Shown in pieces: positions 53,973 through 59,841 of a stretch of DNA of 64,000 nt; the first letter of the stretch is position 1; each line of letters starts with the position of its first letter. This DNA is from Gluconobacter oxydans (GTDB lineage Bacteria > Pseudomonadota > Alphaproteobacteria > Acetobacterales > Acetobacteraceae). Below the pieces are notes generated by a model. That model saw nothing but the letters and a program-made list of their open reading frames with translations, ran no database searches and was not told where the DNA came from. The position numbers were made by a program, and so were the translations under genes. Location: contig NZ_BJNM01000003.1 in the NCBI RefSeq assembly GCF_006539685.1, forward strand, positions 124,001 through 188,000, in the 5' to 3' direction.

Positions 53973-55262
53973 TTACACGCCAAAAAACAGTCGGGAAACG
54001 CCGTCGAGCGCCGCTCCGGCAAGAAAACCGACAACGGTGCCATTTATGCGGATATAGGCCAGATCCCGCCCCACCCGCGACTCCAGCCGGGCCGCCAGAT
54101 CATTACCATCCCAGCCCGCCATGACAGCCGCGATAAACCCCGAGAGCTTTTCACGCAGGCCAGGCAGGATCCGCTGGACGGTACTTTCGACAGCCTGATT
54201 AACCTTCAGCCGCAGGGATTCATTGGAGCGCAGGGCACTGGCGAGCTGGACGATGGCCGCATCGATGACGGTGGCGCTCCAGCCATCCTCGCGTCCGCTG
54301 TCTTCCTCAACCATGCGCCGCAGACGCTCCCACAGCTCCGAACTCCATCCCTTGAGGCTGGTATGCGTCAGGACAGACGTGATCGTATCGGCCATGTCCT
54401 TGCGCCGGGCAGGATCGTTTTCAATACGGTCGATCTCACCCCGGACCCAGGTGGTGAACCCGTGCCGCAGTTCCGAGTCCATCGGATCGACCCGCTCGAA
54501 CTCGGCATGCAGCGCCATGAGGACGCGGCTGGCGACCGAACCACCAATGGCCCAGCCCAGAAAACGCCCCCCCTGCTCGCGCACACGTTCTTCCACGAAA
54601 TGACGCAGATCGGACTCACGGGAGGTCACGGTCGTCTTAATGCGCTCCAGCAGGAAGGACAGGACCTCCTGATGCATCTCGCTGTCCACCATCGCCCGCA
54701 TCCCACGCGAAACGAGGGGAGCCATTTCCTCACCATTCAGCAGAACCGGAAGCGCGCGCGAAATGGCAGTCTTGGCGCGCCCGTCTTCCATCCGGTCGAA
54801 CATCAGCGGAATGGCGGAGCGCATGCTGGTGACGAGCGTCTGGCGGTTCGCCGGGTCGTTCAGCATGTCGGCAATCAGGCCGGAGAGGTCGATTTTCGAC
54901 AGGGCACGGCGGACATCGTCCTCCGTGAAGAACTGACCGGAAATGAAGCGCCCCAGCGCCTGGCCGAGCCGTTCTTTCTGCCGCGGCAGAATGGCCGTAT
55001 GGGGAATGGGCAGCCCCAGCGGATGACGGAACAGGGCCGTAACCGCAAACCAGTCAGCAAGACCACCCACAACGCCTGCCCGCGATCCGGCACGCAACAG
55101 GCCGAACGCAAGACTGCCGTCCCCGATATGACGGGCGGCTGCAAGTGTCGTTCCCGCAGCGAGAACACCCATGCCGACGAGCAGGCCGCCGGCCATGAAC
55201 CTGGGCGAGAAACCTGTGGGGCTGGATTTCCGGGAAACGGGTGGGGTCGTGTCCGCGTGCAT
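53973..55262 (-). CDS. DUF445 (YjiN-family) membrane protein
   Basis: A 429-residue DUF445 protein of unknown function. A membrane helix near residues 22-45 (FMAGGLLVGMGVLAAGTTLAAA) is followed by the family signature GLADWFAVTALFRHPLGLPIPHTAILPR (in part: ADWFAVTALFRHPLG). A long helical, amphipathic middle and a C-terminal hydrophobic segment (INGTVVGFLAGAALDGVSRL) follow, also with the typical RINGTVVGFLAG motif. The start ATG 55262 follows from the family N-terminus; the frame opens earlier but overlaps the divergent ppc region. A role at the cell envelope is likely but unproven. Confidence 0.88.
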   Translation of the reverse strand: MHADTTPPVSRKSSPTGFSPRFMAGGLLVGMGVLAAGTTLAAARHIGDGSLAFGLLRAGSRAGVVGGLADWFAVTALFRHPLGLPIPHTAILPRQKERLGQALGRFISGQFFTEDDVRRALSKIDLSGLIADMLNDPANRQTLVTSMRSAIPLMFDRMEDGRAKTAISRALPVLLNGEEMAPLVSRGMRAMVDSEMHQEVLSFLLERIKTTVTSRESDLRHFVEERVREQGGRFLGWAIGGSVASRVLMALHAEFERVDPMDSELRHGFTTWVRGEIDRIENDPARRKDMADTITSVLTHTSLKGWSSELWERLRRMVEEDSGREDGWSATVIDAAIVQLASALRSNESLRLKVNQAVESTVQRILPGLREKLSGFIAAVMAGWDGNDLAARLESRVGRDLAYIRINGTVVGFLAGAALDGVSRLFFGV

Positions 55263-55390
55263 GAGCGCACCGATAGCATCATCCTGCCGTGCTGTCGCGC
55301 CCAGAGCAAGGTTGCGCTTGATGACAGGGCATGAAAAGTATTGCGCCCCGTCTTCGTCCCATTTTTTCCGCAGAAGCGAGACTGCTCCCG

Positions 55391-58168
55391 ATGTCTGACT
55401 GCGCCTCCCGGCTCGATCCGTCCCTCCATGACCGTATTGACGCAATGACGTCACGGCTTCTCCATGAGCGCGATGGCCTCGCAGACCTGATTGCATCCAT
55501 TGGACAGGGCCTGTCGGACGACGACCGGAGCGAGAGCAGGACGCAGCTGGACGAAATCGAGAATGTCGTCCGCGCCCTGCGTGACGAGCATTTCGTAGAA
55601 CGGGCCGCCCATCTGCGCTCCTATGTCGGGCTCGATACCGCTGCTCCCCAGGGCCGCCTCGAAGCCGTGGCGAAACGCCTTGTCGATCAGGCCCCGGCTG
55701 CCGTCTCCCTGACGGTGCCGCAGATTGCCGCCGTCTTTACCGCCCACCCGACCTTCGCACTGGCGGACGGCGTCTATGAAATCCTGACGCAGCGTGCTGA
55801 AAATCCGGAACTGCCGGTGCCCTGCCTGAAGACGCATCGCCGTCCGGCCCCCCCGACACTGGCGCAGGAACAGGCGCTAGCTCTGGCAGCTATCCTGCGG
55901 GGACGTGATGCGCTCGACGATCTGACCGAAGCGCTGCTACAGGAAATGTCCCAGCGCTGGTCCGGCGAGGCCGGTCAGGTCGATCCCTCGCCCGTCATCC
56001 TCGCAAGCTGGGTCGGGTTCGATACCGATGGCCGGAACGACATCGGCTGGTGGGACACGCTGCGGATCCGCCTTGAGCTGAAATCCTCCCAGCTTCATCG
56101 CCTCACGGACGGACTGGAGCGCCTGGGCCTGCAGGACAGCGCACTGGCCATGCGCGCGCGCCGGGCGATCGAGGCGGTCAAGACGCAGCACGCCGCCTGC
56201 CCGACCGGCAAGGACGCAGCTCCGGAAATCATCAAGGATTTTGCTCAGACACTGATCGCCTGCCGGGACAAGGCGCTGCTCGACGCCACCGAGCTTCTGC
56301 CGCTGTTCCAGGACGCAGCGGTCGGGCTGGATGATGAAGCCAGACTGCACCTGCGAACCATCCGTGCCGGCTTCATGAACCACGGCCTCGGGATCGCCCG
56401 GATCCATACAAGGCTGAATGCCGCACAGATCTACAACGTGGCCCGCACCCGGCTTGGCCTGACCGATGATCCCGCCCTGCCCTCACGTCGGCGCGTTCTG
56501 CTGGCCAGGATCGATGAGGCCCTTTCGGACCTGAAACCCCGCGCCGTGGATTTCGGAGCCCTGCTGGTCGAGCCCGCCTCAGCCGCGCGGCTGATGATGA
56601 CGATGGCGCAGATCCTCAAGCACATCGATTCCGGCTCGCCCATCCGCTTCCTCATTGCCGAAACCGAAAGCGGCTATACCCTGCTCGCCACGCTCTGGCT
56701 GGCACGCCTGTTCGGGATCAAGGACAACCAGATCGAGATCTCGCCGCTGTTCGAGACGGAAAGCGCGCTTGAAAACGGCGAGACCATTCTGGAAGAGGCT
56801 TTCCGCTCCAGCCACTGGCGCGATTACCTGAGGGCGAACGGCCGCCTGTCGCTTCAGTTCGGATATTCCGACTCGGGTCGTTATGTCGGACAGCTCGCAG
56901 CCACCAACCTGGTCGAACGCCTGCGCATGCGGACCCTTTCCCTGCTGGCAGAGCACGGCCTGGAGGACGTCTCCCTGACGCTGTTCGACACGCATGGCGA
57001 AAGCATCGGACGGGGCGCGCATCCGTTCAGCCTGCGCCAGCGTCTGGACTATTTCTCCCCTGCCCGCACGCGCCTTGCCATGCGCGAGGCCGGGATCGGC
57101 TGCCGGGTCGAAACCGCATTCCAGGGCGGAGACGGCTACACGCTGTTCGGCACGAAGGCGCTTGCGGCCTCCACCATCGCAACGCTGGCGGAACATGTGG
57201 CCGATATCCCGCTGGACACGAAAGATCCGGTTTATACGCGGCCTGACTTCGCATCGGATTTCTTCTCCACCATCGCGCTCGACATGGGCGCACTGGTCGA
57301 TGATCCGGGCTATGCAGCGCTGCTGAGCGCATTCGGTCCGGCCCTGATCGACAAGACAGGATCGCGTCCTTCCGCGCGTCAGTCGGACGCGGCGACGGTC
57401 ACACGCATCACCCATCCGGGACAGCTCCGCGCCATTCCCAACAACGCCATTCTCCAGCAGCTGGGCTGGTGGGCGAATGTGCTGCATGGACTTGGCAACG
57501 CGGCGCAGCGTCATCCCGAAACATTCGAGCAGTTCGCCACGGAATCCTCGCGTTTCCGCGAAGCCATGGATTTCGCCCGTCAGGCCCTGGCCCACTCGGA
57601 TCTGGACGTACTGCGGACGACGATCCACCAGCTCGATCCCGGAACCTGGCTGGACCGTGCAGCGAAAGCCCGGAGCGATGAAGAACGTCAGAGCCTGCTG
57701 TGCATTTCGCACGGTCTGGAACTGCTGCGCTTCTGGGCCAGTGGCCCGGCCATGTTCCGGCGCATCCAGGCGGATCATATCGCCCTGCGCGCAGCCTGGC
57801 CGGATGCGCCCCGTATGGAAGCCCGCGAGAAGCTGCTTCATGCCATCCGTTTCGCCCTCATCGACCGGCTGTGGGCGCTTTCAACCCGCATCCCCTATTT
57901 CGGGCCGCGCAACAGCCTGACACGCGAAGCGATCACGAACCTGATCCTCTGCCTGGATGTGCCGCGCGCGCTGCATCTGCTGGAAGATCTGTTCCCGGTC
58001 ACCGCTCCCAGCGTTGCCAATCTCGACTTCGGGGAGCCGGGTGACGCCGCTGAAGCCGCCGGTTTCGCGCGGGAGCATGAGGAAATCTTCGCGCCGCTGT
58101 CACGCTGCTTTGCACTGCTGCGTGAGATCGGCGTGGCGATCATGCACGCCAACCGGGCTTTCGGCTGA
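55391..58168 (+). CDS. ppc: Phosphoenolpyruvate carboxylase-family protein with altered catalytic loop
   Basis: The 925-residue protein matches PEP carboxylase over its length. VFTAHPTFAL near 116 keeps the catalytic histidine, SPLFETESAL near 451 keeps a metal-binding glutamate, and FGYSDSGRYVG near 490 keeps the metal aspartate. Two hallmark sites deviate. The glycine loop FHGRGGxxGRGGxP reads LFDTHGESIGRGAHP near 530-540, and the GYSDSxKDAG lysine and aspartate are R and Y. The C-terminal QNTG is absent (ends ANRAFG). It may still be the anaplerotic enzyme, but activity cannot be assumed. An ATG at 55331 would add 20 residues. Confidence 0.78.
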   Translation: MSDCASRLDPSLHDRIDAMTSRLLHERDGLADLIASIGQGLSDDDRSESRTQLDEIENVVRALRDEHFVERAAHLRSYVGLDTAAPQGRLEAVAKRLVDQAPAAVSLTVPQIAAVFTAHPTFALADGVYEILTQRAENPELPVPCLKTHRRPAPPTLAQEQALALAAILRGRDALDDLTEALLQEMSQRWSGEAGQVDPSPVILASWVGFDTDGRNDIGWWDTLRIRLELKSSQLHRLTDGLERLGLQDSALAMRARRAIEAVKTQHAACPTGKDAAPEIIKDFAQTLIACRDKALLDATELLPLFQDAAVGLDDEARLHLRTIRAGFMNHGLGIARIHTRLNAAQIYNVARTRLGLTDDPALPSRRRVLLARIDEALSDLKPRAVDFGALLVEPASAARLMMTMAQILKHIDSGSPIRFLIAETESGYTLLATLWLARLFGIKDNQIEISPLFETESALENGETILEEAFRSSHWRDYLRANGRLSLQFGYSDSGRYVGQLAATNLVERLRMRTLSLLAEHGLEDVSLTLFDTHGESIGRGAHPFSLRQRLDYFSPARTRLAMREAGIGCRVETAFQGGDGYTLFGTKALAASTIATLAEHVADIPLDTKDPVYTRPDFASDFFSTIALDMGALVDDPGYAALLSAFGPALIDKTGSRPSARQSDAATVTRITHPGQLRAIPNNAILQQLGWWANVLHGLGNAAQRHPETFEQFATESSRFREAMDFARQALAHSDLDVLRTTIHQLDPGTWLDRAAKARSDEERQSLLCISHGLELLRFWASGPAMFRRIQADHIALRAAWPDAPRMEAREKLLHAIRFALIDRLWALSTRIPYFGPRNSLTREAITNLILCLDVPRALHLLEDLFPVTAPSVANLDFGEPGDAAEAAGFAREHEEIFAPLSRCFALLREIGVAIMHANRAFG

Positions 58169-58257: not shown

Positions 58258-59841
58258 ATGCTTCGCAAGGCCCTTCTTCTGGGTGCAGCCATGATGGCTG
58301 TGCCTGCTCTGGCGGCAGGTCCTGCCACACCGGCGCCCAATGCTGACAGCGTGACGAACGGAACCGTAACGGTCAATGGTGCGACCATCCCCTACCGGGC
58401 AGTTGCAGGCACCATTCTGGTTCATGGCGCCGACTACAACGATTCCGGCGATATCCTGGCCAAGCGTGGCACCAAGCTCGATGGCGGCAAGGATGACGAC
58501 AGCAAGAACGCGCCCGTCGCCTCCATGTTCTACACCGCCTATTTCAAGGAAGGCGTTCCCGCCGAAAAGCGCCCGATCACCTTCCTCTATAACGGCGGTC
58601 CGGGCTCGGCCTCTGTCTGGGTTCACATGGGCACCTTCGGCCCGCGCCGCGTGAACACGCCGGGTGACACCCATCTGCCGGCCGCTCCGTATGCGCTCAT
58701 CAACAACCCGCAGTCCCTGCTGGACGTCTCGGACGTCGTCTTCATCGACGCGCCGGGCACGGGTTTCTCGCGGATTGCCGGCAAGGACGCTGACAAGGAA
58801 TTCCTTGGCGTCGATGGTGACGGTGAAGCCTTCACCCACTTCATCTCGAAGTTCCTGGCCAAGTATCACCGCTACAACTCGCCCAAATACCTGTTCGGCG
58901 AGAGCTATGGCACGATGCGCTCGGCCGTGGTCATCAACGACCTTGAGCAGGACGAGAACATCGACTTCAACGGCGTGATCCTGCTGTCGCAGATCCTGAA
59001 CTACGACAACAGCGATGACAGCCCGCAGTTCAATGCAGGCATGGACGATCCGTATGTGCTCGCCCTGCCCACCTACGCCGCCACGGCCTGGTACCATCAC
59101 TGCCTGCCGGCCGAACATCCGGACCTGAAGGCTTTCCTGCATGAGGTCGAGCATTTCGCAATGACCGACTACACGCTGGCCCTGCGTCAGGGTGCGGATC
59201 TGCCGGAAGACCAGCGTCAGGCCATTGCGGCAAAGCTGCATGACTACACGGGCCTGCCGGTCGACTACATTCTGCGGGCGGATCTGCGCGTCAATGGCGG
59301 CGAATTCGACCAGCAGCTTCAGGCGAAGACCGGGATGGCGACGGGCCGTCTGGACACCCGCTATTCAAGCCCGACGATCGATCCGATGAGCCAGGAAGTG
59401 GATTACGATCCGCAGTCCAGCGCCATCAGCTCGGCTTATGTCACGGTCTTCAACGACTACGTCCGCAACACGCTCAAATACGGCACGGACGAGGATTACC
59501 GCCTCTATAACAGCCAGGACCACTGGGACAGCCATCACCGTCAGCCCGGCCACGGCTACCAGCCCAAGGGCGAGCCGAACGTCATGACGGATCTGGCCAT
59601 GGCGATGAAGACCAATCCGAACCTGCATGTCATGCTCAACGCCGGCTACTACGATCTCGCAACGCCTTATTTTGAAGGCGTGTACGAGATGAAGCATCTG
59701 CCGATGCCGAACAGCCTGCAGAAGAACATCGAATATGCGCAGTACACGTCCGGCCACATGGTCTATGTGGACCCGGCGACGCTGCAGCAGCTCCATGACA
59801 ACGTGGCAGCCTTCATCCGTCGGACAGACAATCTGCACTGA
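58258..59841 (+). CDS. Secreted S10-family serine carboxypeptidase-like peptidase
   Basis: A 527-residue protein with a signal peptide (MLRKALLLGAAMMAVPALAA) and an alpha/beta-hydrolase fold of the S10 family. It shows LYNGGPGSASVW, IDAPGTGFSRIAG, the nucleophile GESYGTMRSA near residue 216, the Asp in NAGYYDLATPYF near 464 and the His in TSGHMVY near 498, giving a complete Ser-Asp-His triad. S10 enzymes remove C-terminal residues and work best at acid pH, which would suit a periplasm exposed to organic acids; that link is inference. Confidence 0.9.
   Translation: MLRKALLLGAAMMAVPALAAGPATPAPNADSVTNGTVTVNGATIPYRAVAGTILVHGADYNDSGDILAKRGTKLDGGKDDDSKNAPVASMFYTAYFKEGVPAEKRPITFLYNGGPGSASVWVHMGTFGPRRVNTPGDTHLPAAPYALINNPQSLLDVSDVVFIDAPGTGFSRIAGKDADKEFLGVDGDGEAFTHFISKFLAKYHRYNSPKYLFGESYGTMRSAVVINDLEQDENIDFNGVILLSQILNYDNSDDSPQFNAGMDDPYVLALPTYAATAWYHHCLPAEHPDLKAFLHEVEHFAMTDYTLALRQGADLPEDQRQAIAAKLHDYTGLPVDYILRADLRVNGGEFDQQLQAKTGMATGRLDTRYSSPTIDPMSQEVDYDPQSSAISSAYVTVFNDYVRNTLKYGTDEDYRLYNSQDHWDSHHRQPGHGYQPKGEPNVMTDLAMAMKTNPNLHVMLNAGYYDLATPYFEGVYEMKHLPMPNSLQKNIEYAQYTSGHMVYVDPATLQQLHDNVAAFIRRTDNLH

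Follow-up and report, generated by a model that had tools for sequence, protein, structure and literature searches.

The window, a 64,000-nucleotide stretch of a Gluconobacter genome, contains on its forward strand the coding sequence of a divergent phosphoenolpyruvate carboxylase (PEPC) homologue (55391..58168, 925 aa plus stop). The reading frame was open throughout from the ATG at 55391 to the stop codon at 58166-58168, and starting instead from the in-frame ATG at 55331 would lengthen the protein by 20 aa. A DUF445 gene (PF04286, 301 bits; window 53973-55496, minus strand) adjoins the homologue on the opposite strand, and a serine carboxypeptidase-family gene (PF00450, 62 bits; window 58258-59841, plus strand) follows 90 bases downstream on the same strand. 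No link to PEP metabolism was found for these two neighbours.

The motifs TAHPT, PLFET, GYSDSGRY and FDTHGESIGRGA and the end ANRAFG, all on the forward strand, were present as the earlier note had quoted them. The TAHPT motif (aa 117-121; 55739..55753) contains H119, the equivalent of E. coli His138, and R341 (56411..56413) is the equivalent of Arg396, a placement with which the profile-profile alignment agreed. In PLFET (aa 452-456; 56744..56758), E455 corresponds to Glu506, which we take to be a metal ligand, and in GYSDSGRY (aa 491-498; 56861..56884) Asp543 is kept as D494, with R497 standing for Lys546 and Y498 for Asp547. The glycine loop FDTHGESIGRGA (aa 532-543; 56984..57019), in place of FHGRGGxxGRGG, was rewritten with D533, T534, H535 at the position of Arg581, E537 at that of Gly583 and R541 as the retained Arg587. 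R659 (57365..57367) and R680 (57428..57430) are the equivalents of Arg699 and Arg713, respectively. The C-terminal [QR]N[TS]G was absent, and ANRAFG (aa 920-925; 58148..58165) replaced xxRN[TS]G, the last four residues being RAFG with the terminal Gly alone retained.

Homology to PEPC was far above chance (Pfam PF00311, 65.4 bits vs a cut-off of 22.4), and the match covered residues 405-545 only. The PEPC name of the gene rests on this partial Pfam match, since the NCBIfam equivalog model NF000584 scored 71.8 bits and missed its cut-off of 815 bits; the same model matched 32 of 32 members of the set used for profile A1, with a best E of 2.1e-23. By sequence, the nearest solved structure was E. 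coli PEPC (E 8.5e-8). The protein was 98-99% identical to the copies of G. aidae and G. sphaericus, its nearest named relatives in Gluconobacter. In comparisons with six relatives in Gluconobacter, the most distant of which had saturated dS, dN/dS lay between 0.04 and 0.08, and this low ratio indicated that the Gluconobacter gene is under purifying selection.

The AF2 model (pLDDT 83.0, pTM 0.87) was compared with solved structures. Against E. coli 1jqn it gave Z 27.9 over 745 residues (rmsd 4.7, 14% identity), and against maize 5vyj Z 28.4 over 733 residues (rmsd 4.0), the structural alignments reaching model residue 923 and residue 881 of the 1jqn chain, and 925 and 970 for 5vyj. Sixteen PEPC entries aligned along almost the entire chain at Z 26.0-28.4, and seven further PEPC entries gave Z 20.1-25.9; the next matches were the archaeal-type PEPC 3odm (Z 15.1, 452 residues) and then mostly pyruvate kinase barrels at Z of about 13. 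The best 50 Foldseek rows listed were all PEPC chains, with modest TM-scores of 0.49-0.62 and rmsd of 9.4-12.3 over the full alignment. The model thus predicted a nearly complete, whole-chain PEPC fold. Because the active-site loops (495-498, 536-542 and 652-691) had pLDDT below 50, no pocket geometry is claimed.

To place the changes in a wider set, 22 canonical PEPCs (E. coli, 18 alphaproteobacterial and 3 of a second type) were aligned jointly with 101 distinct variants, these being the variants fetched and no random draw, with L121, L148, L198 and the fragment L205 left out. The positions of E. coli H138, R396, E506, D543, G582, R587, G588, R699, R713 and the terminal G883 were invariant in both sets. 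Other active-site positions were replaced with the same consistency: K546, Lys in 22/22 canonical sequences, was Arg in all 101 variants, and R581 was His, G580 Thr and N/A545 Gly in all 101 likewise. G583 was Glu in 100 variants and Asp in one, H579 was Asp (87), Asn (13) or Ser (1), and D547 was Tyr (80), Phe (16) or His (5). The signature F[DNS]THG[ED]SxGRG was found in 100/101 variants and 0/22 canonical sequences, and FHGRG in 22/22 canonical sequences and 0/101 variants. The active-site correspondences were reproduced by hhalign profile-profile alignment of two separately built alignments. In a tree rooted on E. coli, all 101 variants fell into one clade with a support label of 0.54 after re-rooting, and an earlier 78-row tree, one row of which was a wrong ORF, gave the clade a support of 0.997; because these labels disagree, the clade is defined here by its sequence signature.

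His138 and Arg587 take part in the carboxylation half-reaction, and Arg581 and Lys546 are treated as fixed parts of the PEPC catalytic pocket, distinct from the inhibitor site. The alignment with canonical PEPCs divided the claims of the earlier note. Its reading of the GYSDSxKDAG lysine and aspartate as Arg and Tyr was borne out, whereas the loss of the loop arginines held for the first only, because the Arg587 equivalent was kept while Arg581 was always His; His138, Arg396, Arg699 and Arg713 were retained as well. The lost C-terminal QNTG proved to be a substitution and no truncation, as the final Gly was found in 101/101 relatives. With one basic residue of the loop lost and the neighbouring lysine changed to arginine, a re-wiring of the pocket is suggested. 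Decay or sequencing error as the source of the altered loop was rejected, since the loop was conserved in the 101 relatives and dN/dS was low.

The variant was widespread in its family. Of the 200 Acetobacteraceae genomes searched, the window's own among them, 165 matched strongly (weakest E 9.5e-200), 3 weakly and 32 not at all, twelve of these 32 misses being inferred from absence in the match table. With G013, G156 and G177, whose matches were weak (E 1.9e-4 to 6.9e-7), 35 genomes are taken here to lack the variant; the weak match in G013 and G177 could be a broken or contig-end copy. Each of the 18 genomes drawn from the window's genus had exactly one variant and exactly one PF00311 match. 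Using profile A1, built from 32 members, strong matches were found in 45 of 289 class-wide genomes (weakest E 7.4e-151) and a weak match in one. In a phylum draw of 299 genomes, all 17 matches at E <= 1e-160 belonged to Alphaproteobacteria; 10 weak matches in other classes (E 4.8e-13 to 7.5e-9) covered about 100-120 model positions of the shared core and were taken for cross-hits on canonical PEPC. Judged from these sequence matches, the clade is old and alphaproteobacterial within the one phylum searched. A single short, weak PF00311 match, typical of the variant, was also present in 8/8 genomes of named acetic acid bacteria (Komagataeibacter xylinus CGMCC 21569 and K2G30, K. europaeus, Gluconacetobacter diazotrophicus and liquefaciens, Acetobacter pomorum and tropicalis, and Saccharibacter floricola). 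The copy of Asaia prunellae JCM 25354 (L148:5001-7748) has a stop codon within the matched stretch, which points to a disrupted gene or to an error in the sequence. L113, whose record is titled 'Neisseriaceae bacterium ESL0693', encodes a version with 63% identity to the protein of Gluconobacter and may come from an Acetobacteraceae assembly that was mislabelled or mixed.

The window genome (107 contigs, completeness 100) was searched for PF00311, pyruvate carboxylase, PEPCK_ATP, PEPCK_GTP and malic enzyme. The second canonical ppc that the earlier note had proposed to look for was not found in this assembly, the sole PF00311 match being the variant itself. Neither a full-length pyruvate carboxylase (the best of three matches spanned only 1-450 of 1143) nor PEPCK_ATP, PEPCK_GTP or malic enzyme was found there. 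Across the family, and with Fisher tests that treat genomes as independent and ignore kinship, canonical full-length ppc (about 1000 bits) occurred in 0/165 Acetobacteraceae with the variant vs 8/35 without it (4e-7), and full-length pyruvate carboxylase in 1/165 vs 8/35 (3e-6). In genomes without variant, canonical ppc and pyruvate carboxylase, ATP-PEPCK was present in 19/21, vs 2/11 hand-picked variant genomes (Fisher 9e-5). Of the 35 Acetobacteraceae without the variant, 33 thus had canonical PEPC, pyruvate carboxylase or PEPCK; the remaining two, G069 and G111, had none of variant, ppc, pyruvate carboxylase, PEPCK_ATP and PEPCK_GTP, and therefore the set of enzymes examined is incomplete. 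Malic enzyme, a possible substitute, was present in 11/14 genomes, including 2/5 of the window's genus, to which all 3 genomes missing it belong. In G182, which lacks the variant and has pyruvate carboxylase, the pattern departed from the other 25 sampled genomes of its genus, all of which have the variant.

Class-wide, the exclusion of canonical ppc by the variant was weak (1/45 variant genomes vs 30/244 others, p = 0.06, a fragmentary match in G360 being uncounted); for pyruvate carboxylase the counts were 1/45 vs 42/244 (p = 0.006). The variant stood beside a second ppc of 737-783 bits in G009, G028, G029 and G155 of the Acetobacteraceae draw and beside a second ppc in G479, and beside pyruvate carboxylase in G132 and G453. 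Three of these companion genes, L207, L208 and L209 (from G009, G479 and G155), represent a second PEPC type with 737-783 bits to PF00311. A third and far more divergent PEPC-like type was observed in small alphaproteobacterial genomes, namely L202 (1039 aa), L203 (1143 aa) and L204 (1094 aa) from G308, G209 and G368, with weak PF00311 matches and no A1 match. TAHPT was present in 2 of these 3 and the other motifs were mostly altered, e.g. FFEGGSIS in L202; they are possibly pseudo-enzymes or yet another PEPC class.

Biochemical reports on related bacteria were also considered. For G. xylinus CGMCC 2955 and a mutant derived from it, measurements of PEPC activity have been published, the activity not being tied to a gene in the accessible part of that report (PMC4047042); in the two sequenced K. 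xylinus strains (CGMCC 21569 and K2G30), the variant was the only PEPC type present. Benziman 1969 is cited for PEP carboxylation in A. xylinum in the available text of PMC5259782. In G. oxydans 621H, GOX0102 is annotated as ppc in the text seen of PMC6191907, and, as the sampled genomes of the genus have one PF00311 gene each, we infer that it is the ortholog of the window gene. Two reports were counted against activity, namely that ppc expression is low in G. oxydans and its importance doubted (PMC6191907), and that the annotation of A. pasteurianus 386B lists the gene as a pseudogene with a frameshift (PMC6915089), both as given in the parts available.

Taken together, the gene very probably encodes an active PEPC from a divergent clade, which would convert PEP and HCO3- to oxaloacetate and Pi. 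This reading is drawn from the invariant catalytic set, including the equivalents of His138, Arg587 and the metal ligands, the profile-profile mapping, the PEPC fold, purifying selection, the single PF00311 gene with no other anaplerotic carboxylase detected, the distribution of the enzymes, the activity published for K. xylinus and the assay of a purified Acetobacter PEPC (PMC5259782). Of the two options offered by the earlier note, the first, an active but divergent clade, is thus well supported by these data, and the second, an enzyme that catalyses something else, is weighed below. Against activity stand the replacements of Arg581, Lys546, His579 and the RN[TS]G tail. With residue roles carried over from E. 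coli PEPC, Mg or Mn would be bound by E455 and D494, and PEP by R341, R680 and R659; phosphate would be transferred to bicarbonate, and the CO2 of carboxyphosphate would then join the enolate, aided by H119 and the mobile-loop residue R541. Loss of the Arg581 side chain together with the change of Lys546 to Arg497 would represent a coordinated re-wiring of the phosphate/bicarbonate pocket, in which R497 may compensate for the missing R581.

In E. coli PEPC, K773, R832 and N881 bind aspartate together with R587. The K773 position was Lys in 0/101 variants (H 52, L 11, C 11, F 10, V 9, S 4, A 2, I 1, N 1) and the N881 position was Asn in 0/101 (A 83, S 8, others 10), while the tail was GAFG in 51/101 and ended in Gly in all. 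R832 was matched by Asp or Glu in the joint alignment, a placement that was unstable and fell on D795, R833 or R761 depending on the alignment. These replacements suggested that feedback control is probably altered in the divergent clade. It is possible, if rather doubtful, that the changes are chiefly regulatory, in which case an active PEPC with the usual chemistry, as in the preferred reading with which this overlaps, would have lost or moved its aspartate/malate site and the loop changes would be early-fixed neutral ones. The complete absence of Lys773 and Asn881 and the acidic residue aligned with Arg832 favour such a shift; the dependence of the R832 mapping on the alignment weakens the last point, and R581 and K546, residues of the catalytic pocket, have invariant replacements with no sign of drift. 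Archaeal-type PEPCs likewise lack the inhibitor residues and show competitive inhibition according to section 9 of PMC8100219. In contrast, aspartate and malate both acted as inhibitors of a purified commercial Acetobacter PEPC, the encoding gene not being stated in the part of the report available (PMC5259782), which argues against a vanished site if that enzyme belongs to the clade. If so, inhibition must take place at another site or by competition with PEP, the latter by analogy with the archaeal type.

A different reaction is improbable. An enzyme of this kind would keep the PEPC scaffold and the binding of PEP and metal and use PEP or a similar enol phosphate as substrate, for example as a bicarbonate-dependent PEP phosphatase or in the carboxylation of a different acceptor, with oxaloacetate coming from elsewhere. 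The fixed changes of Arg581, Lys546 and Gly580, the near-fixed ones of Gly583 and His579, and the genomes listed above in which the variant stands beside a second ppc or pyruvate carboxylase would fit it. Set against it are the invariant equivalents of His138 and Arg587, both important for E. coli PEPC catalysis as cited in the available text of PMC11832675, and the presence of another candidate anaplerotic enzyme in nearly all family genomes that lack the variant. The same source cites His579 as important in E. coli, and its replacement in the variants was counted against an active PEPC (PMC11832675). A weak or decaying enzyme kept for a structural or regulatory role, with which the low expression, the pseudogene annotation and the stop codon in the Asaia prunellae copy would agree, is very hard to reconcile with dN/dS of this order, retention in 165/200 family genomes and strictly invariant active-site residues.

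The active, divergent PEPC preferred here was compared with the known types. It shares with E. coli Ppc (PF00311) its length, a near whole-chain fold, the His of TAHPT, the Glu of PLFET, the Asp of GYSDS, Arg396, Arg587, Arg699 and Arg713, and the terminal Gly, and differs from it in Arg581 to His, Lys546 to Arg, Gly583 to Glu, His579 to Asp and the replacement of Lys773 and Asn881. In the second alphaproteobacterial type (L207-L209), Lys773 and Asn881 are likewise missing and the C-terminus reads G[TA]TG in place of RN[TS]G, but FHGRG, Arg581, Lys546 and His579, all replaced in the variant, are kept there. The core aligned with archaeal-type PEPC (PF14010, TIGR02751; 3odm) over the 452 residues given above, and both depart from the bacterial inhibitor site as it is described in section 9 of PMC8100219. 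Membership of the archaeal type was rejected, as PF14010 scored 10.6 vs 25 bits and TIGR02751 11.2 vs 146 bits, and the archaeal-type protein is 55-60 kDa according to the portion of PMC8100219 available, vs 925 aa here. Because it departs from the canonical loop, lysine and tail, the variant is best classed as a divergent clade of its own in the PEPC superfamily, apart from the standard bacterial Ppc.

Four PEPC types are described in section 9 of a 2020 review (PMC8100219), and the divergent clade is not among them in that section; no description of it was found in our literature search, whose coverage leaves out most subscription papers. The chances are about even that the clade is a fifth kind of PEPC next to the bacterial, plant, plant bacterial-type and archaeal-type enzymes, alphaproteobacterial, without Arg581 and Lys546, with a re-wired His/Arg/Glu pocket and feedback inhibition away from the E. 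coli aspartate site, and the working PEPC of acetic acid bacteria. As a large natural clade in which both Arg581 and Lys546 are swapped in all members examined, it would offer a ready test of which residues are needed for PEPC and for holding bicarbonate and the PEP phosphate. In industrial acetic acid bacteria the variant matters as well, since it was the only anaplerotic carboxylase detected in the window genome, and it is probably the chief or sole carboxylase from which this Gluconobacter obtains its C4 acids.
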